Source: Candidatus Wirthbacteria bacterium (GTDB lineage Bacteria > Patescibacteriota > CG2-30-54-11). From it: a DNA stretch of 45,293 nt. Positions 7,723-21,138 of the stretch are shown one piece after another; the first letter of the stretch is position 1, and each line of letters starts with the position of its first letter. The stretch lies in the NCBI GenBank assembly GCA_903889905.1, contig CAISZI010000050.1, positions 1-45,293 of the forward strand, read 5' to 3'. The position numbers were made by a program, and so were the translations under genes. Below the pieces are notes generated by a model. The model did no database searches. It worked only from the letters and a program-made list of their open reading frames with translations, and was not told where the DNA came from.

Positions 7723-7840
7723 AACAAAACTGACTTACCGAACTATACCAAATCCAGGCATGCTTCAAAACTGCCATTGCTCTTCAAGTCTAGGATACAC
7801 GGGCAAGAATAATATTCACGGTGGGTATTTGATACAAAAA

Positions 7841-7876
7841 AAGGGATTTCGACGATTTTCATCATCAAAATCCCTT
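7841..7876 (-). terminator. Orphaned intrinsic terminator, probably once that of tRNA-His
   Basis: Read on the minus strand, AAGGGATTT pairs perfectly with AAATCCCTT (9 bp) and is followed by a run of seven T. No minus-strand gene directly upstream needs it today. Two bases away is the proposed left junction of the integrated element. If the element is removed, this hairpin falls directly behind the CCA end of tRNA-His, so it is best explained as the displaced tRNA terminator. Confidence 0.7.
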
Positions 7877-7877
7877 C

Positions 7878-7883
7878 TGGGGT
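7878..7883 (+). other. Proposed left attachment core (TGGGGT)
   Basis: TGGGGT here matches TGGGGT at the right junction, in direct orientation. Outside the left copy stands the orphan terminator; inside, the sequence becomes clearly A+T-rich. A six-base match alone would be weak. The support comes from the terminator, the tRNA end and the recombinase end all making sense after excision. Confidence 0.55.
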
Positions 7884-8035
7884 CAGTTGGTAAGCGATGT
7901 TATAACATTTTTTTCCAACTCACTTCAGCCAATACATATTCCACAATGCCAGGCAAAACAATAAATTCCATCTGTCCTTGTCTGTTGTTATCCCTACGCA
8001 ATATACTGACAGTGTTAATACTTTAGAAAGCTGAA

Positions 8036-8656
8036 ATGACCGATCAATCTCTATACCTATTCTATGATGAATATCCTGCCGATTTACATCAACAGGATAT
8101 TATGTTTGGAGCGATTATTAATCATCCTTCTGTACTGGATTCCAGCGTTATTAATGATGAAAAGTCATTTCAGACCGATTTGCAAAATTACTGTACGTGT
8201 AATGAACTGAATAAAATTGTCGGTTTTGTTAGAAAAACAGAATTAATTAAAAAATACCTAAATATTAGGATAACAAACTACAGAGAAGAGGCAGGAACGT
8301 TTTCTGGAACTAATCAACTATGGCTGAATTTATTAGCAACATGCGTAAGTATGTATCTCATTAAATATTACAAACTCAATAAACCGCCTGACATAATTAT
8401 TGTGTACGATCCCAAGAGTCTGAGGAATAAACATCAATCACGTTTTTTTACCTTCATGAAGGACGAATTCAACCAGTTTCAAAAACAATTCACAAAATAT
8501 GACGTAAACATTAATTTCCAGCTAGGTAGCAAAAGCATGACAGGAATTGCTATTGCTGATCAAATTGTCAGAGCTGCTTTCTCAACACAAGTTGGAAAAG
8601 ATTTAACGGCATACATCGAAGAAGTGGTTAGAAGCAATCCAAATGTATTTCGTTAA
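8036..8656 (+). CDS. Unknown protein, possibly DUF3800-like
   Basis: A 206-residue protein I do not firmly recognise. It opens with a strand rich in acidic residues (LYLFYDEYPAD), has a central strand DIIIVYDPKS, and ends with SKSMTGIAIADQIVRAAF. This order loosely recalls DUF3800 proteins (N-terminal FYDES, C-terminal S..GLQLADLI), which have an RNase H-like fold and turn up in mobile elements and defence loci. The match is by eye and weak. It is the first gene inside the left end of the element and converges on the next gene with a 4-base overlap. Confidence 0.6.
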   Translation: MTDQSLYLFYDEYPADLHQQDIMFGAIINHPSVLDSSVINDEKSFQTDLQNYCTCNELNKIVGFVRKTELIKKYLNIRITNYREEAGTFSGTNQLWLNLLATCVSMYLIKYYKLNKPPDIIIVYDPKSLRNKHQSRFFTFMKDEFNQFQKQFTKYDVNINFQLGSKSMTGIAIADQIVRAAFSTQVGKDLTAYIEEVVRSNPNVFR

Positions 8657-9405
8657 TTTTGCAGTATTAATGATCTAATTTCCCCAAAAGTTTCGGGGAA
8701 ATTTCTCTCGCTAATAATCGGATTCCTAGGACTCCGTGGCGTCAAATACTTAAAATCTTTCAAAGCCGGTACAGATTTTAACCAACGATCTTCTCCACGC
8801 ATTACGATTACTGTTGCTTTGCGGCAAAGAACCGCGGTCAGCAGATCAAAACCGTACTTTTGCGACTCCAAAATACTATTTAAGGCTTGGGCTTGCACCG
8901 AGTGATAAGGTAAATATTCCAAACAAGACACATTATTAGCAATACGTTGATAATCCTGAATATCTGAAATCATAGGGCTAAAAATTCGCGACCAGTAACG
9001 GAAACCACTTATTAACCTGTGGGCGGGATTAAGATAATAAAAAGGGAACTCACCATACCGATGAATGATGTTATTCCGATTATCCTGATCAAGGGTGGGA
9101 AATATCTGGTGTTCTAAAATCTCATTTGGTTCAATAAAACCCGGCGAAAAATCAGAACCAGGATTTAACTGCAATAAGATGACCTTCGCCGTCATTGGAT
9201 CGCCAATGAAAGGGAGAGGTGGGGTTTGCAAGTTGAATCGATATTCTTTAGTTGCCTCAATATTAAATTGGTCAACAATTTGTCGATCACAATCCAAAAT
9301 AAATGGTGCTGATAACGGGAGATTTACCCACGGGTTTTGCATTGCTAATAAACCATAAAATATAATTTCGTTGAAAAGTGTATCTCCATCCTCCATGCAA
9401 GACAA
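8653..9405 (-). CDS. Unknown protein with uracil-DNA-glycosylase-like features
   Basis: A 250-residue cytoplasmic protein. The stretch LPFIGDPMTAKVILLQLNPGSD near residues 63-84 resembles the first conserved region of the uracil-DNA glycosylase superfamily (strand followed by a G/NPG turn). A later strand TVIVMRG followed by TPRSPRN could match the second region. SCLEYLPYHS lies between. These are structural echoes, not a firm hit, and the usual active-site Asp/His pattern is not clear. It is one of two minus-strand genes inside the element (the other is the small ORF at 10420-10590) and shares 4 bases with the gene at 8036. An alternative start is MEDGDTL, three residues in. Confidence 0.55.
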   Translation of the reverse strand: MSCMEDGDTLFNEIIFYGLLAMQNPWVNLPLSAPFILDCDRQIVDQFNIEATKEYRFNLQTPPLPFIGDPMTAKVILLQLNPGSDFSPGFIEPNEILEHQIFPTLDQDNRNNIIHRYGEFPFYYLNPAHRLISGFRYWSRIFSPMISDIQDYQRIANNVSCLEYLPYHSVQAQALNSILESQKYGFDLLTAVLCRKATVIVMRGEDRWLKSVPALKDFKYLTPRSPRNPIISERNFPETFGEIRSLILQN

Positions 9406-9446
9406 TCCTCACCGACGTTCCTTTAGTCAACAACTAAGGAGGCACT

Positions 9447-10430
9447 ATGTTTACCGGCTACCTCGGGATTCCACAAGACGGGATCGAACCGCTCCCAAAA
9501 CAATGCCCAATGGTCAAAGACTCAAAATCGCCACATTATTTCTTTAACGACTATAGAATCGCTATTGCATATCACCACAACAAAAAAGACCAGACCTCGG
9601 GTATCGGAATTATGACTTTTGCTCCAAATGGTCTTCTTTGGTGTAAAACGGGACGGTACGCCTTTGACTTTAATGAAATAGGTGGTATTTATCACGGCTT
9701 AGACGAAGCCTTGGTTGAGGCAGACAAAAGCAAGGCAAGGAATATTACTGTTATCCTCAACAACGCAAAAATAGTGGAGATGCTGAACAGCTCACAGCCA
9801 TTCGAGGATCCAACCTATATGCAGTTACATGCCTCTATTAAAGACAAACTTGCAAAATACAATAGTTTCCAAGCGCTCTATCGAAAATCTTTACCCGACA
9901 CTGTCCAGTCAAGGTTGAACGAGCAAGCAAAGCTGGCAGCAAGACCACCCCTATTTGATGGACACAACAAACACTGGCTTAATGCACCAGACACCATTTA
10001 TGGCAACATAGTTTCAACAGACGAAGAAGAGGAATTGTGGGCCAAGAAAATGGCTAATTTGCTTTTAGATTTCACACTAAACTACATGAATGAATACAAA
10101 AAGGATTACGGAAAAGAAGGTCTGGACAAACTAAACAAAAAAATCAACTCTGGCAAGGCAAAAGGTCTCCCCCCGTTAAAAAAGAATCTGGATAAGCAGG
10201 TAAAATTGGTGAAGGCCAAGGAATTCAAACCTATAAAGAAAAAAGTCCTTTGTCATCATTGCCAAAATGAAATGGACTTCGAAGAATGCCTTCTGGAGAA
10301 ACCAACTGGAAACCTCAAATACCATTACCGCTGCAAAGAATGCCTAGCTACAAAAGTCCTTAACGATCAAGGACGGACGCTGCTTTATGGTAAATATCCA
10401 CCAGAAATTAAAAAACCACCTATTCAGTGA
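9447..10430 (+). CDS. Unknown protein: possible inactive RNase H-like domain plus C-terminal zinc ribbon
   Basis: A perfect AAGGAGG ribosome site precedes ATG 9447. Residues about 36-115 (YRIAIAYHH, GIGIMTFAPNG, GGIYHGLDEALVEA, ITVILNNAKIVEMLN) follow the strand-strand-strand-helix-strand order of RNase HI. The positions expected to hold catalytic Asp/Glu look like His, Gly and Asn, so it would be inactive as a nuclease if the fold is right. The middle is Lys-rich and helical. The C-terminus has a CHHC..CKEC zinc ribbon (about residues 267-296). Together these suggest nucleic-acid binding. The gene converges on a small minus-strand gene with an 11-base overlap. Confidence 0.65.
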   Translation: MFTGYLGIPQDGIEPLPKQCPMVKDSKSPHYFFNDYRIAIAYHHNKKDQTSGIGIMTFAPNGLLWCKTGRYAFDFNEIGGIYHGLDEALVEADKSKARNITVILNNAKIVEMLNSSQPFEDPTYMQLHASIKDKLAKYNSFQALYRKSLPDTVQSRLNEQAKLAARPPLFDGHNKHWLNAPDTIYGNIVSTDEEEELWAKKMANLLLDFTLNYMNEYKKDYGKEGLDKLNKKINSGKAKGLPPLKKNLDKQVKLVKAKEFKPIKKKVLCHHCQNEMDFEECLLEKPTGNLKYHYRCKECLATKVLNDQGRTLLYGKYPPEIKKPPIQ

Positions 10431-10590
10431 ACCTTCTGGCTTTCTTGTTCCTCTGATCAATTTCTAATAACAACTTAAAGAACCTCAAAAGCCGATCAGC
10501 GGCCTCATTTGCCTCAATATCGCTTAGATATTCACCCTTCTCGACATAAACCCGCTGGAGCGACACTGCGAGGTTATTTAGACTTGTCAT
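10420..10590 (-). CDS. Small protein of unknown function (56 aa)
   Basis: The start at 10590 is supported by GGGAGGAATTT directly before the ATG; a longer frame to 10674 lacks this. The product is short, charged and probably all helical (MTSLNNLAVSLQRVYVEKGE at the start, basic at the end). It overlaps the end of the zinc-ribbon gene tail to tail and diverges from the large sigma-4-like gene. It could be a small regulator of that gene, which is only a guess from position. Confidence 0.55.
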   Translation of the reverse strand: MTSLNNLAVSLQRVYVEKGEYLSDIEANEAADRLLRFFKLLLEIDQRNKKARRFTE

Positions 10591-10700
10591 AAATTCCTCC
10601 CTAAAAAAAGGTTGTATTTTCATTAATACAGTCCCTATATAGTATTGGGAAGGGAAAAACTCCCTCGATAACAACCTTATGCGTTTATGAAAGGATTTAT

Positions 10701-12599
10701 ATGCAAAAGCGCGTCATCTCTTCAAATCTCGAAATCAAATCAATAAATGGCTCCACCTTATATTCATTTCCATTTCAGATTCAAATTGAATCATCACTCA
10801 TTACATTCTCCAGCAAATTAAACAACAGCAACCTTAAAATAGATCTTCCACATATCGATTTTGTGTCCAAAAAAGACTATGGAGCTATGTTAAATTATCT
10901 GATTACAATTCTTGGACTAGAAAAGGCAAACTGCCCAAAAGAAGAACAAGCATGGCATGAAGAAGCTGAAACATTCTTTTTGATTCACTATTACTTACCA
11001 ATTGACGATTTGAAAAGAAAACGTAAATTTTGGTTAGGTAGTTTTGATAAAGTAGATTCCCTACGTGAACTAAAAAAACTTGCTCTTGAAAAAAGAGATA
11101 AAGCAACTGATTCATCAGTTGAAGCGGTCTTAAAACTAGCAGCAATTCACTCTTCGGAAGACTCACAAACACTTTACAAAAAAGCTGTCTACCTCAATAC
11201 AACTATTGTACTGCCTTATAAATTCGATAGATATGAACAGTTTAAACAAAATATGCTGAAAAACTTCAGAGACTTTGTAGATACTATCGAAAAAGGGTTT
11301 GCCCAAATTGAAGGATCCCTAGCAGGCCATGCTGAGCTTCGAGAAAAACACATCAACAAGATTCTTCAGGAAGCAAATACGAAATTCCGAAAAAAACATG
11401 CCTCTTTAAATGATGTAAAGAAAAGCTGGATAAAACGTCACTTCGACAAACTTAAACAGCAAAGCCAAAATTTTGCTCATACTTTTCATGATATCAATCA
11501 AGAAGCACATTCCCTTCTGCAGACCTCCTATGGCAAAGCCGGAATTAGTTGTCGGAAAAATGAATTAAACCTCAAAGATGGCGAAAGTCTAAAACATAGC
11601 AAAATCGAGTGGCATAGACTTGAAGACAATTTTGACATGACTAGAGCATCGGAATTAATGGATCGGCTCATATCTAGAATGCAAAAAAAATATGGGTACC
11701 CAGCAGTTGAATTATCCAATAAAGCCGAGATCAATAACCTTCTCAACAATAAAGAAGATGGTTTAATAGGTTTCTATCTATGGGCGAACTACGCCAGGGA
11801 TAAAAACGACTTCATAAGTCTTTGGGACATCTGTATCCAAATAACTGATCAATTTGTCTCTGAGGAACAAAGTCTCGATTTGTTTCTACGTGACTGTGAT
11901 GCCATGTATAACAATGTCCTGGCTGTTGGCTATGAGGCAGTATATAAGGCTATCAGCGATCAACTGTCACCAATTGAACAAAGGGTTTACCAGTTGTCTT
12001 ATTTCAGGCAGGCGATGATTGACAACAGAATTCCTCTATTTGAACCACTGACAATGAATTTTCTGAAAGAAATGGGCACAAGCACTGTCGGATTGGTGAT
12101 TTTAGTCTTAATTTTGCAAAAAGACTCACTATGGGACAACAAAAATCTTTCTAATGAACTAAAGACTCGTTGGTTATCATACTTAAAATTTTATCCCTTC
12201 TGGGTCGAAATAATGCAAGACAGTGACCGAGAAAAGTATTATCAAGAAACAGTAAAACCAAGCATCCGTTCCTTATCTGAAACTATCTCAGAGGATGGTT
12301 CCATTACTCTAGGAGACACAATCAAAGACGAGTCTCAAAACGATGCTATTTATCCCAACATGCTCCAAGCCGTTGTTCTCAACCATAACGCCGAAAAATT
12401 TGAGAATTGGATTGACTCTTATTGTACAGACAAACAAAAGAATATTTTGCAAGCTTATTTTTATAATGACTTCAACCAAAAGGAAATTGCCCAAAAGGAG
12501 GGAATAAGTCAACAAGCCGTCGCTAAAATGCTCAAACAGGGCATTAAACGACTTAATGAAGGCCTAACCAGTCAAGGGATTATCTCAACAGATGTCTAA
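10701..12599 (+). CDS. Large unknown protein with C-terminal sigma-70 region 4-like HTH
   Basis: A 632-residue, mostly helical, Lys/Glu-rich protein. Only the C-terminal about 55 residues are recognisable: TDKQKNILQAYFYNDFNQ followed by KEIAQKEGISQQAVAKMLK reads as a sigma-70 region 4 or LuxR-like helix-turn-helix. No sigma region 2 is visible, so it is unlikely to be a normal sigma factor. A likely amphipathic coiled part lies around residues 150-290, and one hydrophobic stretch (STVGLVILVLILQKD) near residue 465. GAAAGGA precedes ATG 10701. The next gene overlaps its stop by 8 bases, starting a run of small co-oriented genes. Confidence 0.75.
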   Translation: MQKRVISSNLEIKSINGSTLYSFPFQIQIESSLITFSSKLNNSNLKIDLPHIDFVSKKDYGAMLNYLITILGLEKANCPKEEQAWHEEAETFFLIHYYLPIDDLKRKRKFWLGSFDKVDSLRELKKLALEKRDKATDSSVEAVLKLAAIHSSEDSQTLYKKAVYLNTTIVLPYKFDRYEQFKQNMLKNFRDFVDTIEKGFAQIEGSLAGHAELREKHINKILQEANTKFRKKHASLNDVKKSWIKRHFDKLKQQSQNFAHTFHDINQEAHSLLQTSYGKAGISCRKNELNLKDGESLKHSKIEWHRLEDNFDMTRASELMDRLISRMQKKYGYPAVELSNKAEINNLLNNKEDGLIGFYLWANYARDKNDFISLWDICIQITDQFVSEEQSLDLFLRDCDAMYNNVLAVGYEAVYKAISDQLSPIEQRVYQLSYFRQAMIDNRIPLFEPLTMNFLKEMGTSTVGLVILVLILQKDSLWDNKNLSNELKTRWLSYLKFYPFWVEIMQDSDREKYYQETVKPSIRSLSETISEDGSITLGDTIKDESQNDAIYPNMLQAVVLNHNAEKFENWIDSYCTDKQKNILQAYFYNDFNQKEIAQKEGISQQAVAKMLKQGIKRLNEGLTSQGIISTDV

Positions 12600-12810
12600 A
12601 ACACCTCAACTACAGTTAGAGCAGGAAATCGAAGAGCTGATTCAGTTACGCCTGGCACTCGTACTAATACCTGCCAAACGGGTATTTAAGCGGGCAGGTA
12701 GTGAACAGTTGTATCAAGAGATTTGTAATCTAGTTCAATCTACACGTCCAAAGATCACTCAAATTATTAGCCAATTCCAGGTAGAAAGGAAACCCAGCAA
12801 TGCCAAGTAA
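12592..12810 (+). CDS. Small helical protein of unknown function (72 aa)
   Basis: Overlaps the sigma-4-like gene by 8 bases and the next gene by 11, so the three are probably translated as a coupled unit. The product is almost entirely helical with an acidic start (LQLEQEIEELIQLRLALVLI) and a basic end. I do not recognise the family. Confidence 0.6.
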   Translation: MSKTPQLQLEQEIEELIQLRLALVLIPAKRVFKRAGSEQLYQEICNLVQSTRPKITQIISQFQVERKPSNAK

Positions 12811-13033
12811 ACAGACCTATGAAACAGCAGATTTTTATCTCGCTGCCTTCCTCAAAGCAAAAGGACTTAAAATTGACAGAATCGAACGAGACGGACGCAA
12901 AACGATCTTCATCTTTGAGAATACCGCCACCAGGGAAGGATTAATCAAAGACTTCTACAATGAAGGATTAGTTGGCGTAAACGACTACAAAAACGCCATC
13001 CAGGACATGCGGGCTATCGTCTACAACTGGTAA
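12800..13033 (+). CDS. DUF5659-like small protein
   Basis: A 77-residue protein with the pattern of DUF5659: YETADFYLAAFLKAKGLKID, a basic strand, IFIFENTATREGLIKDFYN, and a helical end NAIQDMRAIVY. Members are small, of unknown function, and common in mobile elements. The start ATG lies inside the previous gene with an AAAGGA ribosome site 9 bases upstream. The family call is from memory of its F-L-A..L...G and F.F..T....L...F patterns. Confidence 0.7.
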   Translation: MPSKQTYETADFYLAAFLKAKGLKIDRIERDGRKTIFIFENTATREGLIKDFYNEGLVGVNDYKNAIQDMRAIVYNW

Positions 13034-13081
13034 GACGATAAGTCCAAAGTTCACCGTAAAAGCCAGTATTCTTATGCAAAG

Positions 13082-13336
13082 ATGAAATTATGCAATGATA
13101 TAGGGATACTGGATTTAATTTGTCTAAAAACCGTGATTTCACCCGCAGGGCTTCGACAGTTTAAGGACATCTACCTTAAAAAATATGGCAAACAGCTTAC
13201 AGACCAAGAAGCTCTTGCTATTGCCTTGCCCTTTCTCAGCTGCATTAAGGTCATCTACCGACCACTAAAGAAATCATGGGTTGAAAAACAAGGATGCAAT
13301 GATGAGCAAACGCAAGCACAACTTACGCCTGATTAA
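13082..13336 (+). CDS. Small protein of unknown function (84 aa)
   Basis: Starts at ATG 13082 after a 48-base gap; the nearby AAAGATG is a weak ribosome site. The product has GLRQFKDIYLKKYGKQLTDQ, then a hydrophobic helix ALAIALPFLSCIKVIYRP. The 3' end overlaps the next gene by about 35 bases in another frame. Its position between the DUF5659-like gene and the recombinase partner fits an accessory gene of the recombinase module. No function can be assigned. Confidence 0.6.
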   Translation: MKLCNDIGILDLICLKTVISPAGLRQFKDIYLKKYGKQLTDQEALAIALPFLSCIKVIYRPLKKSWVEKQGCNDEQTQAQLTPD

Positions 13337-13769
13337 AGCGAAAGATTCATATTCCACAAAGGAAATTGTCGAGCTTCTCGCAGTACATGCCAAAACAGCC
13401 CAGAACTGGCTACGTGATGAAACTCTAGCAAAAATTGAAGGAATTTACCCTCCAGTTGTTCGAGGAATTGATCTTAAAGAATTCCTGACAAAAAGGATCT
13501 TAAAGTCAAAAGTGACTTTGGCTAATGATGAATTCTATTGTCCCCACTGTAAGGGAGCTCGGAAAAGTAGAATTATTACCATCGAGAGTAACGGCATAAT
13601 ACTAGGCAAAGATCATCAAAAAATTACAATTAAAGGGAAATGTGAAATCTGTATGACGCAACTAAACAGATTTGACACTCAGGACAACTACAATCTCAGG
13701 CAGCAAGAACCCATAAGTCAGGACAAACATGCATTAGAAGCACGCCAGCAGCTTAATTTATTTGGGTAA
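13302..13769 (+). CDS. HTH plus zinc-ribbon partner of the tyrosine recombinase
   Basis: A 155-residue protein with an N-terminal helix-turn-helix of the excisionase type (YSTKEIVELLAVHAKTAQNW). It continues into a winged-like segment (GIDLKEFLTKR) and a C-terminal zinc ribbon (CPHC near residue 85, CEIC near 118). The start at 13302 is chosen over 13281 and 13299 because AAGG lies 8 bases before it. Proteins with this layout commonly precede integrases of the kind found just downstream, so it probably directs or regulates that recombinase. The pairing is from my knowledge of similar loci; the regulatory role is inferred. Confidence 0.75.
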   Translation: MSKRKHNLRLIKAKDSYSTKEIVELLAVHAKTAQNWLRDETLAKIEGIYPPVVRGIDLKEFLTKRILKSKVTLANDEFYCPHCKGARKSRIITIESNGIILGKDHQKITIKGKCEICMTQLNRFDTQDNYNLRQQEPISQDKHALEARQQLNLFG

Positions 13770-13775
13770 ATGGCC

Positions 13776-13826
13776 GGAGTGAAGCAAGGTATTAAGTATG
13801 TACTAATATCCCTGCTCTAACACTCC
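13776..13826. promoter_or_regulatory. 51-base nested inverted repeat between HTH partner and recombinase
   Basis: GGAGTG (13776-13781) pairs with CACTCC (13821-13826), AGCA with TGCT, and the inner TATTA with TAATA around a loop near 13795-13803. It starts 7 bases after the HTH gene and ends 31 bases before the recombinase ATG. It could be a binding site, an RNA hairpin controlling the recombinase, or a recombination site. No T-run follows, so it is not a standard terminator. Confidence 0.6.
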
Positions 13827-13856
13827 TTTCCAATCACCATTAGTAAGGAGAATATC

Positions 13857-14957
13857 ATGTCATCAAACAGGGCAAAAAACGAAAAGATAAAACGCCAGTA
13901 TTATCATTGGTTAAGGGAAGCTCAGAACAGTTCCGAGAAGACCGTCGATGCCATCAAAAAGGCACTCTGGGTTTATGACGAATTTTCTAATTATGAAGAC
14001 TTAGGGCTGTTTGACGGTAATCGAGCTGTCGAGTACAAAAAGTGGCTTGCCGTAAGAAAACATCCCAAGACTGGAGAGAAGATTTCCCCAGTTACCCAGT
14101 ATCACTACCTCAGACACCTCAGGGCATTCTTGCTTTGGCTATCAGATAAACGTGGTTATCGATCAAGGATTTTTCCTTCAGACATCGCCTTCCTCAATAT
14201 GGATAAGAAATATGCTAAGGCAGCCCTGGATCCCACAAAGCAAGAATATCCCCCTCTGAGTTATGTAATCGCCCTTTGTAGATCAATAGATATCGTAACT
14301 GAGATTGATCGCAGGGATAGGGCTCTTATCGCCTTCACGGCCATAAGTGGCGCCAGGGACGAAGCAATTTCCACTCTGACTCTGCAATGCTTTGACGAAC
14401 AAAAGCTTGTTATTTACCAATATAAAAAATACGGTGTTCAAACCAAGTTTGCTAAAGATATCACCACTTACCTGATGGTATTCGATCAGGAATTGCTTGA
14501 TTACTTTTTGGATTGGGTCAAATACCTACGGCAGGAAAAACATGCCTCATCGAGTTTTCCGATTTTCCCGCAAGACAAGCAAGAATGCTTACGGGACAAT
14601 AATGTTTGTTTCTTTGCAGAACATGTTGACGACAAGCCCTGGAGTGGTGCTGGAGGCATCCGCAAAGTATTCGAAAAGAGGGCAAAAGCCGCAGGGATGG
14701 ATTACTACCCACCTCACAAATTTCGTCATTTAGCAATAGAACTTGCCAGGGGAAAATGTCACGATCTTAATGAACTAAAGGCAGTCTCTCAAAATTTTGG
14801 GCATGAAAACATTGAAACAACAATGGTTTCCTATGGGAACTTCAATGCAACTCAGATCGGTAAAATCATTGGAGAAATTGATTTCCAAGGAAAAAACACC
14901 AGCAAACTTACGGAAAAGGAAAAGCTAGAATGGATTAGGAAAATTAAAGCGCTTTAA
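13857..14957 (+). CDS. Tyrosine recombinase (integrase family)
   Basis: A 366-residue phage-integrase-fold recombinase. Residues about 15-110 form a SAM-like core-binding domain (TVDAIKKALWVYDEF, VTQYHYLRHLRAFLLWL). The catalytic domain shows the Arg in SGARDEAISTL near residue 165, a Lys in the QYKKYGVQTKF strand, HKFRHLA near 285 (HxxR), GHENIETT near 313, and the nucleophile Tyr in VSYGNF near 323. AAGGAG lies 7 bases before ATG 13857. It belongs to a widespread group accompanied by an upstream HTH/zinc-ribbon gene, as here. The element also has a serine recombinase at its end, so this enzyme may serve another site or be a remnant of an older element. Confidence 0.88.
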   Translation: MSSNRAKNEKIKRQYYHWLREAQNSSEKTVDAIKKALWVYDEFSNYEDLGLFDGNRAVEYKKWLAVRKHPKTGEKISPVTQYHYLRHLRAFLLWLSDKRGYRSRIFPSDIAFLNMDKKYAKAALDPTKQEYPPLSYVIALCRSIDIVTEIDRRDRALIAFTAISGARDEAISTLTLQCFDEQKLVIYQYKKYGVQTKFAKDITTYLMVFDQELLDYFLDWVKYLRQEKHASSSFPIFPQDKQECLRDNNVCFFAEHVDDKPWSGAGGIRKVFEKRAKAAGMDYYPPHKFRHLAIELARGKCHDLNELKAVSQNFGHENIETTMVSYGNFNATQIGKIIGEIDFQGKNTSKLTEKEKLEWIRKIKAL

Positions 14958-14971
14958 TTAGTCAAAATCCT

Positions 14972-15029
14972 GTGCTATATTCCCTGTAGTGTTTGATAAT
15001 GTTTAGTAAAGTAATTGAAAAGGGTAACT
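14972..15029 (+). promoter_or_regulatory. Likely extended -10 promoter of the restriction module
   Basis: TGCTATATT in the 72-base gap after the recombinase is an extended -10 (TGnTATAAT-like). It is followed by AAAAGGG about 6 bases before ATG 15030. No good -35 is visible, as is common with extended -10 promoters. It would drive the Mrr-like, MerR-like, R-M, small-protein and serine recombinase genes, all of which are tightly packed. Confidence 0.45.
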
Positions 15030-15908
15030 ATGTCCCGCTCACAGGATTTGGCAGCAAAAGTTATCTTCGCAGCGATGCAGATACTCAAAGAAAATGGCGG
15101 GGAATTACCAGGCAAAGAAGTCATCGCCCAAGTTGAACAAAAAGTGGATTTTGACCAATGGGCAAAAGAAAAATACGAAAAAACAGGCTATATCCGCTGG
15201 CAATCGATACTACACTTCCACACAATCGGTTGCATCAAAGGCGGATACCTAATTAAAAGGAAGGGCGTCTGGTATTTAACACCAGAGGGGGAAAAGGCAT
15301 TAGAAAAAGGAGAAGCAACTTTTTTTGCTTTGACGAGACAAGCATATGCCGAATGGAACAAGCAACATCAACAGGAACCAACCGAATCGATAGTAGATCA
15401 TGTTGAAAGTGAAGAAGAGCAAAAGATTACCCTAGATGAGGCAGAACAAGTAGCCTATGAAGGATTGAAACAACATGTTCGGGAGATGAACCCATATGAA
15501 TTCCAGGAATTAGTAGCTGCCCTCCTGAGAGGTATGGGGTACTACACTCCATTTGTAGCCCCCAGAGGTCGTGACGGTGGGGTTGATATTATCGCCTATC
15601 GAGATCCCCTCGGCACTATCCCCCCACGTATTAAAGTACAGATCAAACACCGCCAGGACGCCGCAGCCGTTGATGAAATCAGAAACCTAATGGGTATTTT
15701 GCAACAAGACGATGTAGGAATTTTTGTATCAAGTGGTGGTTTTACTTCTGATTCAAAGACTACGGCAAGACAAGCTCATGTTCACGTTGAATTGATAGAT
15801 TTTACAAGGTTTCTTCAGCTTTGGCGTGAATTCTACAACAAACTGACTGATGAAGATAAAAGTCTGCTTCCCCTATACCCTATCTACTTTTTAGCACCAG
15901 TTGAATAA
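15030..15908 (+). CDS. Mrr-family restriction endonuclease-like protein
   Basis: A 292-residue protein with an N-terminal winged-helix domain (about residues 1-95, as in Mrr_N) and a C-terminal PD-(D/E)XK nuclease domain. The nuclease part begins at MNPYEFQELVAALLRGMGYY. The core RGRDGGVDIIAYRD provides the catalytic Asp and VQIKH holds the Lys strand, where many members have QCK. GIFVSSGGFTSDS follows, as expected. Mrr enzymes cut modified (often methylated) DNA and may thus act as a type IV restriction enzyme. ATG 15030 is chosen over TTG 15015 because AAAAGGG precedes it. The next gene overlaps its stop by one base, so the module is co-transcribed. Confidence 0.85.
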   Translation: MSRSQDLAAKVIFAAMQILKENGGELPGKEVIAQVEQKVDFDQWAKEKYEKTGYIRWQSILHFHTIGCIKGGYLIKRKGVWYLTPEGEKALEKGEATFFALTRQAYAEWNKQHQQEPTESIVDHVESEEEQKITLDEAEQVAYEGLKQHVREMNPYEFQELVAALLRGMGYYTPFVAPRGRDGGVDIIAYRDPLGTIPPRIKVQIKHRQDAAAVDEIRNLMGILQQDDVGIFVSSGGFTSDSKTTARQAHVHVELIDFTRFLQLWREFYNKLTDEDKSLLPLYPIYFLAPVE

Positions 15909-16093
15909 TGGCAACCTTAAAAGACTACCTTACGATCAAAGAAGTGGCGGAATTGCTCAACATGTCTCCAAGCACGCTTAGACTTTGGGACAAACAAGGC
16001 AAGCTCAAAGCTACGCGCCATCCGCTCAACAACTATCGGTTATATAAAAAAGCCGATATCGAAAAGCTCATCAATGCAATTACCAAGGCCTAA
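15908..16093 (+). CDS. MerR-type/excisionase-like DNA-binding protein
   Basis: A 61-residue single-domain winged HTH: LTIKEVAELLNMSPSTLRLW, followed by RHPLNNYRLYKKADIEKL, the standard MerR N-terminal pattern without any effector domain. It starts at the last base of the nuclease gene (overlap TAATG) and ends 1 base before the R-M enzyme ATG. Small regulators of this type often sit directly before type ISP-like R-M genes, so control of the R-M genes is likely. An excisionase role for the element is an alternative. Confidence 0.85.
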   Translation: MATLKDYLTIKEVAELLNMSPSTLRLWDKQGKLKATRHPLNNYRLYKKADIEKLINAITKA

Positions 16094-16094
16094 A

Positions 16095-19000
16095 ATGTCA
16101 CGACAACTTATCGAAAATTACCTAAGAGAAGTTGAAAACATCAAGCAATACGGTGGGGAAAAAGCCCAGAATGAGGGATCTCTGGAAGTTGCCGTGATGA
16201 ACTTAATCCGTGGTTATTGCCAGTCCAGACACTATATTCTTGTACCAAAACTAGCATACAAGGCTGATCGCATAATACCAGACGGAACCATAAAGAATGC
16301 CCTTCGTCTCGATTGCGGATACTGGGAAAGTAAGGATAAGTATGACGACCTCGACACCGAGATCCAAAAAAAAATTGAAGCGGGCTACCCAACAGACAAT
16401 ATTCTCTTTGAGGACAAGGAAACAGCCATTCTAATTCAGAATGGCAAGGAAGTTCTACGGGTTAAGTTCCAGGACGAAGAAAAACTAAACACTATCCTGA
16501 ATACTTTCGTAAATTATGAACGTATAGAGATTACCGAATTTAATCAAGCTCTCGAACAATTCAAACATGACTTACCTGCAATCCTGGATGCTTTGCGAGA
16601 TGTTCTTGATGAACAGGGGGCATCAAACCAGAATTATCAGAAATCCAGGGATGGTTTTTTAGAGCTGTGTAAAAAAGCCATCAATCCGACCATCACGCTT
16701 CTCGACATCCGAGAAATGATCATCCAGCATATCCTGACCGAAGATTTATTCATGAGCGTATTTGACGAGACCCAATTCCATCGAGAGAACTCAATTGCCC
16801 ATGAATTGTCGCATATCGTCGACACATTTTTTAGCCATGAAGTAAAACGAAATACTCTAGATCGCATCCAGCATTACTACAAAACCATCAAATCAAGAGC
16901 CTCTCAGATTGCCGACCATCATGAGAAACAACACTTTTTGAAGGTGCTTTATGAAAATTTTTACAAAGCCTATAACCCCGATAAAGCTGATAGGCTAGGG
17001 GTAATCTACACACCCAATGAAATAGTGCGGTTCATGATTGAGGGGACAGAGCACCTCCTGCAAAAGCATTTCAACAGACTCCTCAGTGACCCAAATGTTG
17101 AGATACTCGACCCTGCTACAGGTACAGGCACATACATCACGGAAATCATCGACTATCTGCCGACCCCCAAGCTCGAATACAAGTACAAAAACGAGCTACA
17201 CTGCAATGAAGTCGAGATTCTGCCTTACTACTTAGCCAATCTCAATATCGAATTCACGTATCGCCAGAAGATGGGAAAATACGAAGAATTTCCTAGTGCC
17301 TGCTTCGTGGATACTCTCGACAATATCAATTTTGACTACAAAGGCAAACAACAGGACTTTTTCTTCAACCTAGGCGATCAGAACCTGGAACGCATCAAGC
17401 GACAGAACAGCAAGAAAATATCCGTTATCATCGGCAATCCGCCATATAACGCCAATCAGCAGAATGAAAACGACAACAACAAAAATAGGGATTACTTCAA
17501 TGATCAAAAACGTAAAATAGGCGGTGTGGATGGTAGAATCAGGCAAACCTATATAAAAGAAAGCACTGCTCAGAAGACTAAAGTAACCGATATGTATGCC
17601 AAGTTCTATCGTTGGGCGAGCGATAGGCTAGATGATAACGGAGTGATCGCCTTTATTACCAATCGATCATTCATTAATAGTAGATCGTTTGACGGATTTA
17701 GGGCATGTATCGAAAAGGAATTTGCATTTGCCTATATCATCGATACCAAGAGCGATGTTCGGGCAAATCCCAAGATCACTGGAACTACACACAATGTGTT
17801 CGGGATACAGACTGGAGTGGCAGTGATGTTCTTGGTTAAGAAAAAAAACGAACAGAACCAATGCCAAATTCAATACTTCACTCTGAGGGATGAACAGAAA
17901 CGTGAAGAAAAACTAGAATGGTTTGCGAATAATCATATTAGGTCAATCCCTTTCGACCACGTCACGCCAGACACGAAGCACAACTGGATTAACATGGCCG
18001 ATAATGATTTTGATGAATTGCTTCCCTTAACTAGTAAACAAACGAAATTTTCAAAGTCGGCAAGTGGAGAGAACGCTTTATTTAAAGTTTTTTCGAATGG
18101 AATCAATACAGCAAGAGATGGTTGGATGATCGATTTCTCCAGCAAACAATTAGTGAAAAAGGTCACCTGGTTTATTCAAGTGTATGAAAATGAAAAACAA
18201 AACACCCATATCAAGTGGTCAAGAAACCTCAAAAATCGTTATCGTCAAAGTCTTAAAGAACCCTATAGGTCATCAAGAATTGTAGAATATTTTTATCGTC
18301 CATTCGTAAAAAAATATATTTACAAATCCGACATTTTTATTGATGAGCTGGGACTTGATAAACAATTATGTATCAGTCCAAAGAATGCGGCTATTTGCCT
18401 CCGTCATGTATCCAGTTCAACAGACTTCATGACTATCGTTTCGCCAATAAGTGTGGATTGGCATTTTCTCGGTGATACAGCATATTTCACCTTAAATCGT
18501 TTTGACTCAGCGGGTCATAGAATTGACAATATTACAGAATGGGGATTGCAACAATTCCAAAAAAAATACAGCTCTATTCAGATTACTAAAACGGATATCT
18601 TTCAATATGTTTATGCAATTTTGCATCATCCTTTATACCTGGACAAATATAAAGTTAATCTCAGAAGAGATCTCCCTCGAATCCCTTTGTATGACAATTT
18701 CTCGCAGTGGGCAAAATGGGGACAAGAATTGATGAATTTGCATATCAATTTTGAAACAGCGAAACCATTCAGATTAAAACGAGTGGATCTTAAAACGGAC
18801 AATTCAGACAAAAAGCCAAAACCGAAGCTGAAAGCAGATAAGGCATCCGGTGAGATCATCCTCGACGAAAATACAAGTTTAACCGGTATCCCAGCGGAAG
18901 CGTGGGAGTATCGCCTGGGTAATCGTTCAGCTCTGGAATGGATCCTTGATCAGTACAAAGAAAAAAAGCCAAAAGATCCAACAATACGGGAAAAGTTCAA

Positions 19001-19130
19001 TACCTATTGCTTTGCTGACTACAAAGAACAGGTAATCGATCTACTACAAAGGGTTACAACAGTAAGCGTTGAAACATTAAAAATCATAAGGGAAATGGAA
19101 ATCATTAACGATGGAGTTGCCAATGATTGA
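16095..19130 (+). CDS. Single-chain restriction-modification enzyme (type IIG/ISP-like)
   Basis: A 1011-residue enzyme with an apparent nuclease, methylase and specificity part in one chain. Near residues 60-85, IIPDGTIK and RLDCGYWESKD give a PD-(D/E)XK-type site (Asp 73, Glu 78, Lys 80), followed by the DDLDTEIQKK and GYPTDNILFED landmarks of this family. The N6-adenine methylase has AdoMet motif I DPATGTGTY near residue 339 and catalytic motif IV NPPY near residue 448. The C-terminal half matches the ISP-type target-recognition region, ending in YRLGNRSALEWILDQY. There is no RecA-like helicase between nuclease and methylase, unlike classic type ISP enzymes. ATG 16095 follows the MerR gene directly; an in-frame ATG at 16074 lies inside that gene and is less likely. 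It probably protects the element's host from foreign DNA. Confidence 0.88.
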   Translation: MSRQLIENYLREVENIKQYGGEKAQNEGSLEVAVMNLIRGYCQSRHYILVPKLAYKADRIIPDGTIKNALRLDCGYWESKDKYDDLDTEIQKKIEAGYPTDNILFEDKETAILIQNGKEVLRVKFQDEEKLNTILNTFVNYERIEITEFNQALEQFKHDLPAILDALRDVLDEQGASNQNYQKSRDGFLELCKKAINPTITLLDIREMIIQHILTEDLFMSVFDETQFHRENSIAHELSHIVDTFFSHEVKRNTLDRIQHYYKTIKSRASQIADHHEKQHFLKVLYENFYKAYNPDKADRLGVIYTPNEIVRFMIEGTEHLLQKHFNRLLSDPNVEILDPATGTGTYITEIIDYLPTPKLEYKYKNELHCNEVEILPYYLANLNIEFTYRQKMGKYEEFPSACFVDTLDNINFDYKGKQQDFFFNLGDQNLERIKRQNSKKISVIIGNPPYNANQQNENDNNKNRDYFNDQKRKIGGVDGRIRQTYIKESTAQKTKVTDMYAKFYRWASDRLDDNGVIAFITNRSFINSRSFDGFRACIEKEFAFAYIIDTKSDVRANPKITGTTHNVFGIQTGVAVMFLVKKKNEQNQCQIQYFTLRDEQKREEKLEWFANNHIRSIPFDHVTPDTKHNWINMADNDFDELLPLTSKQTKFSKSASGENALFKVFSNGINTARDGWMIDFSSKQLVKKVTWFIQVYENEKQNTHIKWSRNLKNRYRQSLKEPYRSSRIVEYFYRPFVKKYIYKSDIFIDELGLDKQLCISPKNAAICLRHVSSSTDFMTIVSPISVDWHFLGDTAYFTLNRFDSAGHRIDNITEWGLQQFQKKYSSIQITKTDIFQYVYAILHHPLYLDKYKVNLRRDLPRIPLYDNFSQWAKWGQELMNLHINFETAKPFRLKRVDLKTDNSDKKPKPKLKADKASGEIILDENTSLTGIPAEAWEYRLGNRSALEWILDQYKEKKPKDPTIREKFNTYCFADYKEQVIDLLQRVTTVSVETLKIIREMEIINDGVAND

Positions 19131-19395
19131 GTTAAAACTCACGGAAACTCAGTTTAAAAACCTTTTTGACACATTTACGATTGGCGCAATCGCCAAATGG
19201 TATTGGAATGACATTCAGAATATTGCACAAAAGCCAGATGAAGAAATGACAATTTTTATGCAAAGATTAGCCGCACTACACTATCCTGAGACAGTAGCAA
19301 AAAGTGAACAACATGATATTGCATACAATGCTGACTACCATGACAAGATGCAGGACATTTTGATTGCTGCTATCGATTACATGCTTAATCAGTGA
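19123..19395 (+). CDS. Small protein of unknown function after the R-M enzyme (90 aa)
   Basis: ATG 19123 is supported by GGAG 6 bases upstream and overlaps the R-M stop by 8 bases. The product is helical, acidic and Trp/Tyr-containing (TIGAIAKWYWNDIQNIAQ, ILIAAIDYMLNQ) with no recognised motif. Coupled translation with the R-M gene suggests a partner or inhibitor of it. Its stop (TGA) overlaps a GTG start of the recombinase. Confidence 0.65.
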   Translation: MIELKLTETQFKNLFDTFTIGAIAKWYWNDIQNIAQKPDEEMTIFMQRLAALHYPETVAKSEQHDIAYNADYHDKMQDILIAAIDYMLNQ

Positions 19396-20975
19396 TTGCA
19401 ATGCATAATCCTCTAAAATACTTTATTTACGCCCGTAAATCTTCCGAACCAGACGAGAAGCAGATGCTTTCGATCCAATCTCAACTTTTCGAAACCCAAG
19501 AAAAAATCATTACTCCTTTAGGCGTTGAAATAGTTGACACGATCACTGAGTCACACAGCGCCAAAGCCCCTGGCAGACCCGCATTTGATCACATGATTGA
19601 ACGCATCAAAGCAGGTGAGGCAAACGGCATCATTGCTTGGCATCCTAACAGGCTCTCCCGCAACTCAATTGATGCAGGACAGCTAATCTATATGCTTGAT
19701 ACCAAAGAGTTACTTGACCTTAAATTTTGCTCATACACGTTTGAAAACACCCCAGAAGGCAAGTTTTTCCTTAATATGATGTTTACCCAGGGCAAATACG
19801 ACGTCGACAAACTCTCAGTAGACGTCCTCAGAGGCTTTAGAACCAAACTCAGGGATAAAGGTCAGCTCATCACCAGAGCACCTATCGGTTATCTGAACGC
19901 TGGGACGGAAAAAGGCAATAAACATGCCATTGTTGACCCTGAACGATTCCCCGTTATACGCAGACTTTGGGATTTGATGTTGTCAGGGAACCATTCTGTT
20001 GGCGATATTGTTGATATCGCCAATAATGAATGGGGTTTCCTGACGCGTAAGACTAAAAAGAGAGGTGGAAGCCCACTTGCAGAAGGCACCCTCAATAAAA
20101 TGTTTCACAACGCATTCTATTGTGGCCTTTTGACCTATAATGGCCAAGAATATAGCGGCACACATACTCCAATGGTTACGAAAGAGGAATTTAACCATGT
20201 CCAGGACTTATTGCATGGCAGAAGCTCTCCTCGTCGCCAAAAACACGTATACGCCCTAACAGGACTGATCCGCTGCAAAGAATGCGGAAGCATGTTTACA
20301 GCCTCTCCCCGCCGCAACAGGCATGGCAAGCTCTACGACCACTATCATTGCACAAGGAAGAATAAGGCCGTCGAATGCCATCAGAGCGTCCTACAGAAAC
20401 ATATACTGGAGACCCAAATAATAAACGAGCTCAAAACGCTCACTTTTGACCAAGAATGGCTTGACTGGGCCATCAATGAGATCGAGCACCGAAAGCCCCA
20501 GGAAGAAGCCCAAATTGACTCTACAGAAGCTTCCATGCAGAAAAAACTTGAAGCTCTGGAAAGCGAGAAAAGAAATTATGTCCGTATGAAAGCTAAAGAA
20601 CAAATTAGCGAGGAAGATTTTGTTTCTGAAGTCAATCGTGTCACTAAAGAACTTGACCAGATTAAAAGTAAACAACAAACAAAAAAACGTCCCTGGGAAG
20701 AGACGTTGGAGCTTTCAGCCAAAACATTTAATTTCTCGTTTTATGCCTCTCTGTGGTTCCTAAATGGGATCAACAACGACAAACGGGCCATTTTCAACGC
20801 AATTGGTTTGAACCCTCAGATCTTCAATAAAGAACTAGACTTTGAGGTCAAAGAGCCCTTTTATACTTTCAAAACTGGTCTGGAAAGAATCAAAAGGTTT
20901 GAACCCTTGGGTTCTGGCGTTATACCAAACAAAAAAGACGCCGAAGCGTCTCTTTATCAACTATGGGGTGACTGA
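19392..20975 (+). CDS. Large serine recombinase (integrase of the element)
   Basis: A 527-residue large serine recombinase. The resolvase domain (about 1-150) has the nucleophile Ser in YARKSSEPDEK and the conserved RLSRNSIDAG. The recombinase domain follows (GYLN..AIVDPERFPVIRRLWDL), then a zinc ribbon (IRCKECGSMF and YHCTR) and a coiled coil about residues 345-430. It starts at GTG 19392 (overlapping the previous stop) or ATG 19401. Its last four codons and stop (L W G D stop) lie in the CCA end and acceptor stem of tRNA-His, so the reading frame crosses the attachment core. In the excised circle the frame would continue past the core for 26 other residues before a TAA. It very probably integrates and excises this element. 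Confidence 0.92.
   Translation: MIAMHNPLKYFIYARKSSEPDEKQMLSIQSQLFETQEKIITPLGVEIVDTITESHSAKAPGRPAFDHMIERIKAGEANGIIAWHPNRLSRNSIDAGQLIYMLDTKELLDLKFCSYTFENTPEGKFFLNMMFTQGKYDVDKLSVDVLRGFRTKLRDKGQLITRAPIGYLNAGTEKGNKHAIVDPERFPVIRRLWDLMLSGNHSVGDIVDIANNEWGFLTRKTKKRGGSPLAEGTLNKMFHNAFYCGLLTYNGQEYSGTHTPMVTKEEFNHVQDLLHGRSSPRRQKHVYALTGLIRCKECGSMFTASPRRNRHGKLYDHYHCTRKNKAVECHQSVLQKHILETQIINELKTLTFDQEWLDWAINEIEHRKPQEEAQIDSTEASMQKKLEALESEKRNYVRMKAKEQISEEDFVSEVNRVTKELDQIKSKQQTKKRPWEETLELSAKTFNFSFYASLWFLNGINNDKRAIFNAIGLNPQIFNKELDFEVKEPFYTFKTGLERIKRFEPLGSGVIPNKKDAEASLYQLWGD
20931..20951 (-). terminator. Minus-strand terminator for tRNA-His inside the recombinase gene
   Basis: On the minus strand AGACGC-TTCG-GCGTCT is a perfect 6-bp hairpin with a UUCG tetraloop, followed by six T. 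It begins 13 bases beyond the CCA of tRNA-His, so it can end the tRNA transcript. It lies wholly within the last codons of the serine recombinase (K K D A E A S), so the same bases serve both purposes. Confidence 0.8.
20964..20969 (+). other. Proposed right attachment core (TGGGGT) at the CCA end of tRNA-His
   Basis: TGGGGT overlaps the complement of the CCA end, discriminator base and first acceptor pairs of tRNA-His. It matches the left core at 7878-7883. Upstream is element DNA, downstream the chromosomal tRNA gene. Confidence 0.55.
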
Positions 20976-21041
20976 AGGGACTTGAACCCTCAACATCCGC
21001 CTCCACAGGGCGGCGCTCTAACCAGTTGAGCTACAGTCACC
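20964..21041 (-). tRNA. tRNA-His (GTG)
   Basis: The minus-strand cloverleaf has a 7-bp acceptor stem GTGACTG/CAGTCAC, anticodon loop CTGTGGA (anticodon GTG) and T-arm GGGTTCAAGTCCC. The histidine identity pair is present: an extra 5' G at 21041 faces C73 at 20967. CCA is encoded at 20964-20966. The 3' end carries the element attachment site. Confidence 0.97.
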
Positions 21042-21138
21042 ATAAACTCCTGAACCGATTCCCTGACTAACACCTGCCGTTCCACTACTTGTCCCCCGAA
21101 GCTGCATCAGCGTAGGGGGAAGCTACAGTCACCATAAA
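21029..21138. repeat. 18-bp direct repeat of the tRNA-His 5' end
   Basis: AGCTACAGTCACCATAAA occurs at 21029-21046 (the first bases of tRNA-His plus leader) and again at 21121-21138, 92 bases apart. The outer copy lies directly beside the likely -10 box, so a 92-base segment appears to have been inserted or duplicated between the tRNA promoter and the intact gene. Confidence 0.8.
21090..21124 (+). repeat. Divergent copy of hairpin repeat family 2
   Basis: TCCCCC (21092-21097) pairs with GGGGGA (21115-21120), flanked by TTGT and AGCT as in the copy at 21884-21916. The loop differs more than in the other copies. It lies inside the 92-base insert upstream of tRNA-His. Confidence 0.5.

Follow-up and report, generated by a model that had tools for sequence, protein, structure and literature searches.

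A large serine recombinase gene that ends within tRNA-His

In the 45,293-nucleotide stretch of Candidatus Wirthbacteria DNA analysed here (contig CAISZI010000050.1, hereafter the window), the frame of a large serine recombinase (LSR) runs into the 3′ end of a tRNA gene on the opposite strand. The encoded protein scored above the cut-off for the Resolvase (PF00239, 56 bits), Recombinase (PF07508, 41.3 bits), and zinc ribbon (PF13408, 40.9 bits) domains, and carries a YARKS serine motif (of the YxRxS type) of which the serine was invariant in the alignment. This is the domain composition of a large serine recombinase (i.e., a serine integrase), and recombination activity is predicted for it. Since ARAGORN places tRNA-His on the minus strand (20964–21040), the last codons of the recombinase gene are antisense to the CCA end of the tRNA, and the gene closes with TGG GGT GAC TGA (20964–20975), i.e., W-G-D-stop, 12 nt inside tRNA-His.

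An earlier note on this DNA had claimed that the free and integrated forms of the element encode recombinases with different tails, and its coordinates (recombinase frame 19392–20975 with its W-G-D-stop, core at 7878, and TAA at 7962–7964) all proved exact. The claim itself is supported by the sequence, in which the core stands at both ends of the element and the recombinase frame continues for 26 codons beyond the left-hand copy. In the predicted circle junction, the recombinase end CTATGGGGT is joined to CAGTTGGTAAGC, and the tail read from 7884 in the recombinase frame is QLVSDVITFFSNSLQPIHIPQCQAKQ (26 codons). The open length of 26 codons was rejected as evidence for a tail, chance often yielding such frames; the case for the tail was built on its motifs, its reading frame, and the pattern of substitutions.

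The crossover would lie somewhere within the shared TGGGGT, and the boundary so placed is probably right. Upstream, 57 sites had 6 nt or more in common with the tRNA end, and among these the in-frame tail score was highest at 7878 (12.1); out of frame, the highest score in the element was –1.2. Moreover, the left junction is not a chance match, because a minus-strand terminator (7878–7839) occupies the position expected for the tRNA-His terminator before insertion. No empty site was found for this element in a comparison with two other genomes of the family. A CAACT..AGTTG palindrome around the core was rejected as a candidate for the attP arms, its conservation being too low to rely on.

Table 1. 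Features of the integrated element in the window, and core-plus-tail units in relatives (last three lines, in coordinates of the respective loci).
Feature	Position	Strand	Remarks
LSR gene, integrated form	19392..20975	+	GTG start 19392, ATG 19401, TGA 20973–20975
Detached C-terminal LSR tail	7884..7964	+	26 codons plus TAA (7962–7964); joined to the LSR in the circle only
Presumed zinc-ribbon motif, right attP half-site	7899..7906	+	GTTATAAC; distance to core start 21 nt (16 nt for the T-loop motif in tRNA)
Integrated element	7881..20966	+	~13.1 kb; bounded by two core copies, with a displaced and a replacement tRNA terminator
Right-hand core TGGGGT (attR)	20964..20969	+	Antisense of tRNA-His CCA end, discriminator, and last acceptor base
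Left-hand core TGGGGT (attL)	7878..7883	+	Recurrence of TGGGGT; left end of the element
tRNA-His (GTG), integration target	20964..21040	-	ARAGORN; 3′ end restored by the element
Displaced original tRNA-His terminator	7839..7878	-	18-pair intrinsic hairpin with T run; adjoins left core
Replacement terminator for occupied tRNA-His	20932..20955	-	Intrinsic; element-borne, within the last LSR codons
Core plus VRT tail units behind one LSR (L118)	11482, 13951, 15040
Core plus VRT tail units behind one LSR (L297)	1502, 2920	-
Core plus VRT tail units behind one LSR (L117)	11461, 13552

The same design recurs throughout the phylum

A relative of the window LSR was present in 181 of 287 genomes of the phylum, and the public relatives carry CPR/Patescibacteria names; among cultured phages and plasmids, only distant LSRs (~25% identical) were found. 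The set that was assembled comprised 170 distinct frames, mostly from CPR and some from other phyla, of which 140 were of the long type with sequence available beyond the stop. As many as 105 of these 140 read into the 3′ end of an opposite-strand tRNA, and many kinds of tRNA were involved. The layout, which the earlier note had expected to be unusual, is instead the usual one among these tRNA-targeting LSRs, and the rumA ICEs of streptococci provide a published version of it with a protein-coding target (PMC4701971).

In the integrated state, the LSRs end in unconserved antisense-tRNA peptides (e.g., RRGRDSNSR); LSRs in tandem or tRNA-free contexts end in W..L..DVRT. The mapped far ends of 37 elements consisted of the core followed by an in-frame tail, roughly W..IV.DVRT..........IPxL. 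When a profile of the W..L..DVRT-type tail was run over the core-sharing sites upstream of the LSRs, scores of at least 12 were obtained in frame for 19 of 85 elements, and out of frame for none. Some of the 37 far ends were picked on their in-frame tail score, which biases that set, and a frame-blind search for the DNA motif is the fairer test: it yielded 22 exact matches in the LSR frame and 4 out of frame, the latter lacking a conserved tail. The window tail (WGQLVSDVITFFSNSLQPIHIPQCQAKQ) fits the pattern of its relatives, with which it has the in-frame VxT and IP motifs in common, although it reads VIT instead of VRT. A second LSR in the same genome, located at tRNA-Gln (L229, WLAVVNNIVTILRNHKGHIYIPDLRPI), likewise fits. 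No core positioned elsewhere and no stops or frameshifts in the tail, the findings by which the note had proposed to disprove its claim, were seen in the relatives.

A conserved KxEALTS peptide preceding the core was rejected as a protein motif, as the antisense tRNA terminator accounts for it. In one locus (L066:11580-11895), the tRNA at the LSR end received no ARAGORN call; an insert, perhaps an intron, seems to interrupt it. Four further loci (L255, L257, L259, and L196) showed near-identical tails on both strands of one stretch, i.e., two att sites in inverted orientation.

The proximal part of the tail is constrained as DNA

The codons of the V-R-T motif were nearly fixed (GTT/ATT, AGA/CGA, and ACN, i.e., GTT-MGA-AC), GC-rich hosts included, and as judged at the sequence level VRT is constrained as DNA and not clearly as protein. 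The distance from the core start to the start of the motif is 21 nt in the far ends and 16 nt in the tRNA genes, where the same motif is the T-loop. For the Listeria (A118) integrase, attP has its zinc-ribbon motif 5 bp farther out from the centre than attB does (PMC3783163). Since the offsets of 21 and 16 nt match this known attP/attB geometry, the VRT motif presumably represents the zinc-ribbon DNA site, and the T-loop appears to serve as the zinc-ribbon motif of attB. The 5-bp shift expected of LSRs was thus present, as seen for the right half-site only. Unlike the apparent T-loop motif of the window, the attB of the A118 integrase is not in a tRNA gene (PMC3783163).

The distal part of the tail is constrained as protein

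Beyond this half-site, the pattern of conservation was of another kind. An I-P pair 12–13 residues after the V was found in frame in 12 of 37 tails (in 11 of 37 before their stop), versus 0/37 and 0/37 in the other two frames. In the 16 motif-bearing tails the IP codons varied freely (ATA/ATC/ATT 8/4/4 and CCA/CCT/CCC 6/5/5), and the LSRs belonging to 13 of these 16 tails had a median identity of 36%. For four tail pairs, each located on a shared contig or locus and three of them from non-CPR hosts, the pooled pN/pS after the motif was 0.36 (p 3e-5), and in the three pairs tested identity fell from 76–92% in the tail to 20–33% in the 150 nt past the stop. Over 11 diverged tails the pN/pS signal was weaker, with 0.67 in frame versus 0.91 and 1.21 out of frame. 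The LSR frame was also kept where the spacing to the core had changed (L204, L200, and G012C1a).

These data support protein-level selection on the distal tail, and pure DNA constraint, which we accept as the cause of conservation for GTT-MGA-AC, was rejected for this part. The purifying selection on the 26-codon tail for which the note had proposed to look was therefore borne out, by shared motifs in the window and by statistics in the relatives. As the tail is selected and present in the circle only, integration would detach a selected C-terminal module. Tail length varies, and the distal tail is not universal, since some tails stop just 3 residues after VRT (IRTDLG*). An AlphaFold2 model of a natural full-length relative (L118) showed a confident LSR fold matching the SPbeta, Bxb1, PhiC31, and A118 integrases, with the tail itself predicted at low confidence.

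Proposed mechanism and alternatives

We find it moderately probable that the element's own LSR, with attP in the 3′ end of its gene, puts the 13.1-kb element into the 3′ end of tRNA-His, and that the full-length enzyme integrates while loss of the tail makes integration self-limiting. Once the element ends are joined, the frame encodes an LSR with an extra C-terminal tail. This full-length LSR would be the integrating enzyme. In the integrated form, the tail is left at the far end and the LSR ends in a few unconserved antisense-tRNA residues, and the element restores the 3′ end of the tRNA and brings a new tRNA terminator within its LSR codons. If tail loss is indeed self-limiting, remobilisation would need a full-length enzyme or a directionality factor, and the former could come from another circle or from a neighbour in tandem that refits the LSR with its own tail. 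The circle-only tail, the selection on it, its detachment upon integration, and the restored tRNA end and terminator are the components that the sequence data support. That the change of tail switches the LSR between integration and excision, as the note had suggested, is something we infer.

The same anatomy and selection data would fit a tail that acts as a brake on excision, in which case the full-length LSR could only integrate and removal of the tail would license or ease excision, with or without a directionality factor. Since one of the solved LSR complexes was deposited as an autoinhibited PhiC31-attL state, regulation of LSRs by their C-terminal parts is plausible; the unconserved integrated tails, however, give no hint of a retained function, and we consider such a brake unlikely. 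Less room still is left for the tail being a functionless by-product of an attP that merely happens to lie at the gene end, with VRT conserved only as a DNA-binding site. The GTT-MGA-AC codons frozen even in GC-rich hosts, the very short tails of some elements, and the low-confidence tail in the AlphaFold2 model would agree with a by-product, but it leaves unexplained an IP motif that lies 60 nt from the core, occurs only in frame, and has free synonymous codons. Together with the pN/pS of 0.36, conservation that stops at the stop codon, and a frame maintained despite altered core spacing, this makes a by-product distinctly improbable.

The element also encodes a tyrosine recombinase (13857–14957), and tyrosine integrases are known integrators at tRNA genes (PMC4383910), so that this enzyme might have integrated the element, with the overlap between LSR and tRNA-His being coincidental. 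Against this coincidence, the LSR–tRNA overlap recurs throughout the phylum, the shared core is short, the motif shifted by 5 bp is a signature of LSR att sites, and the displaced terminator agrees with the predicted element end; an origin through the tyrosine recombinase is accordingly hardly credible.

Tandem arrays and cassette-like units

A second element entering the same tRNA would come to separate the tRNA from the first LSR, and the latter would thereby be refitted with the tail of the newcomer. An arrangement of this kind was found in the L159 tandem array, where the frame of the upstream LSR_A continues into the element B tail (PMWLHMLNEVRTYALRGEPVNSGK) and the second LSR ends in tRNA-Asn 8.6 kb further on; L175 and L140 resemble it. 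Contigs of Abditibacterium and Acidobacteriota carried further core-plus-tail units behind one LSR, at a spacing of 1–2.5 kb (Table 1), with no tRNA found near them within the stretch read. These units resemble gene cassettes following a recombinase. It is a slightly less than even prospect that integration is one-way and self-limiting, that the module of an incoming relative can reset it, and that LSR-less core-plus-tail cassette arrays such as those outside CPR could refit a recombinase. In L140 and L007, an LSR with a refitted VRT tail was located only ~670 bp from tRNA-His, and this stretch may represent a tiny satellite element that lacks its own recombinase.

Relation to known systems

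The streptococcal rumA ICEs have a direct repeat in their single serine integrase gene, and upon integration the integrase and its target swap their 3′ parts (PMC4701971). The design described here is similar in that the att repeat lies inside the integrase gene and integration alters the sequence and length of the C-terminus; the rumA ICEs, as described there, target the protein-coding gene rumA (PMC4701971), whereas the window element targets tRNA-His. The pertinent section of that paper describes changes of frame and contains no selection test on the exchanged tail (PMC4701971). In archaeal suicidal tyrosine integrases (of the SSV1/pTN3/pT26-2 type), attP likewise lies in the integrase gene, the target is a tRNA, and the whole enzyme is encoded by the circle only; such self-disrupting recombinases have been termed exclusively archaeal in a review (PMC8371274). 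The window enzyme shares these three traits but is a serine rather than a tyrosine recombinase, and where the archaeal gene is broken into an Int(N) and an Int(C) piece, both inactive, the window LSR swaps only a short tail and keeps all its catalytic domains intact. It works partly like an archaeal suicidal integrase and is not one.

In mycobacteriophage integration-dependent immunity, too, attP lies within a gene, and integration alters the C-terminus of a protein and hence its behaviour; there it is the repressor that changes, and a tyrosine recombinase acts as the integrase.

C-terminal exchange of a serine integrase at integration is already known from the rumA ICEs (PMC4701971). The tRNA targets, the phylum-wide use, the selection on the tail, and the embedded tRNA terminator were not found in the literature searched and appear to be new. 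The authors of Islander stated that serine integrases at tRNA genes were not known (PMC4383910, published 2014), and our literature searches, with most subscription journals outside their coverage, did not turn up any paper on CPR serine integrases that target tRNA genes. If true, the proposed mechanism would give the archaeal suicidal integrases a bacterial equivalent built on a serine recombinase, and one whose lost part is selected according to the sequence data. It would also offer a natural pair of enzyme forms distinguished by their tail alone, by which one-way integration becomes testable. The LSR–tRNA overlaps also show that serine integrases use tRNA genes on a large scale, apparently reading the universal T-loop as the zinc-ribbon site of attB.

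Further features of the element and its host

The genome hosting the window element measures 2.0 Mb; the other genomes of the phylum are mostly 0.5–1.7 Mb. Within the element, the region 15015–19130 encodes an Mrr-type endonuclease and a type ISP restriction-modification protein, which likely constitute defence cargo. A small protein (13082–13336; F..iy..kYG..L.d.eA) might act as an accessory or directionality factor; judged by eye alone, similar proteins lie directly upstream of the LSRs of G001C2, L170, L171, L183, and L286. The 94-aa gene immediately upstream of the window LSR was dismissed for such a directionality role, as no homologue was found in the other loci. Finally, an exact 18-bp repeat (AGCTACAGTCACCATAAA) occurs at 21029–21046 and 21121–21138, 92 bp apart; it corresponds to the 5′ end of tRNA-His plus its flank, and is possibly the remnant of another event there.
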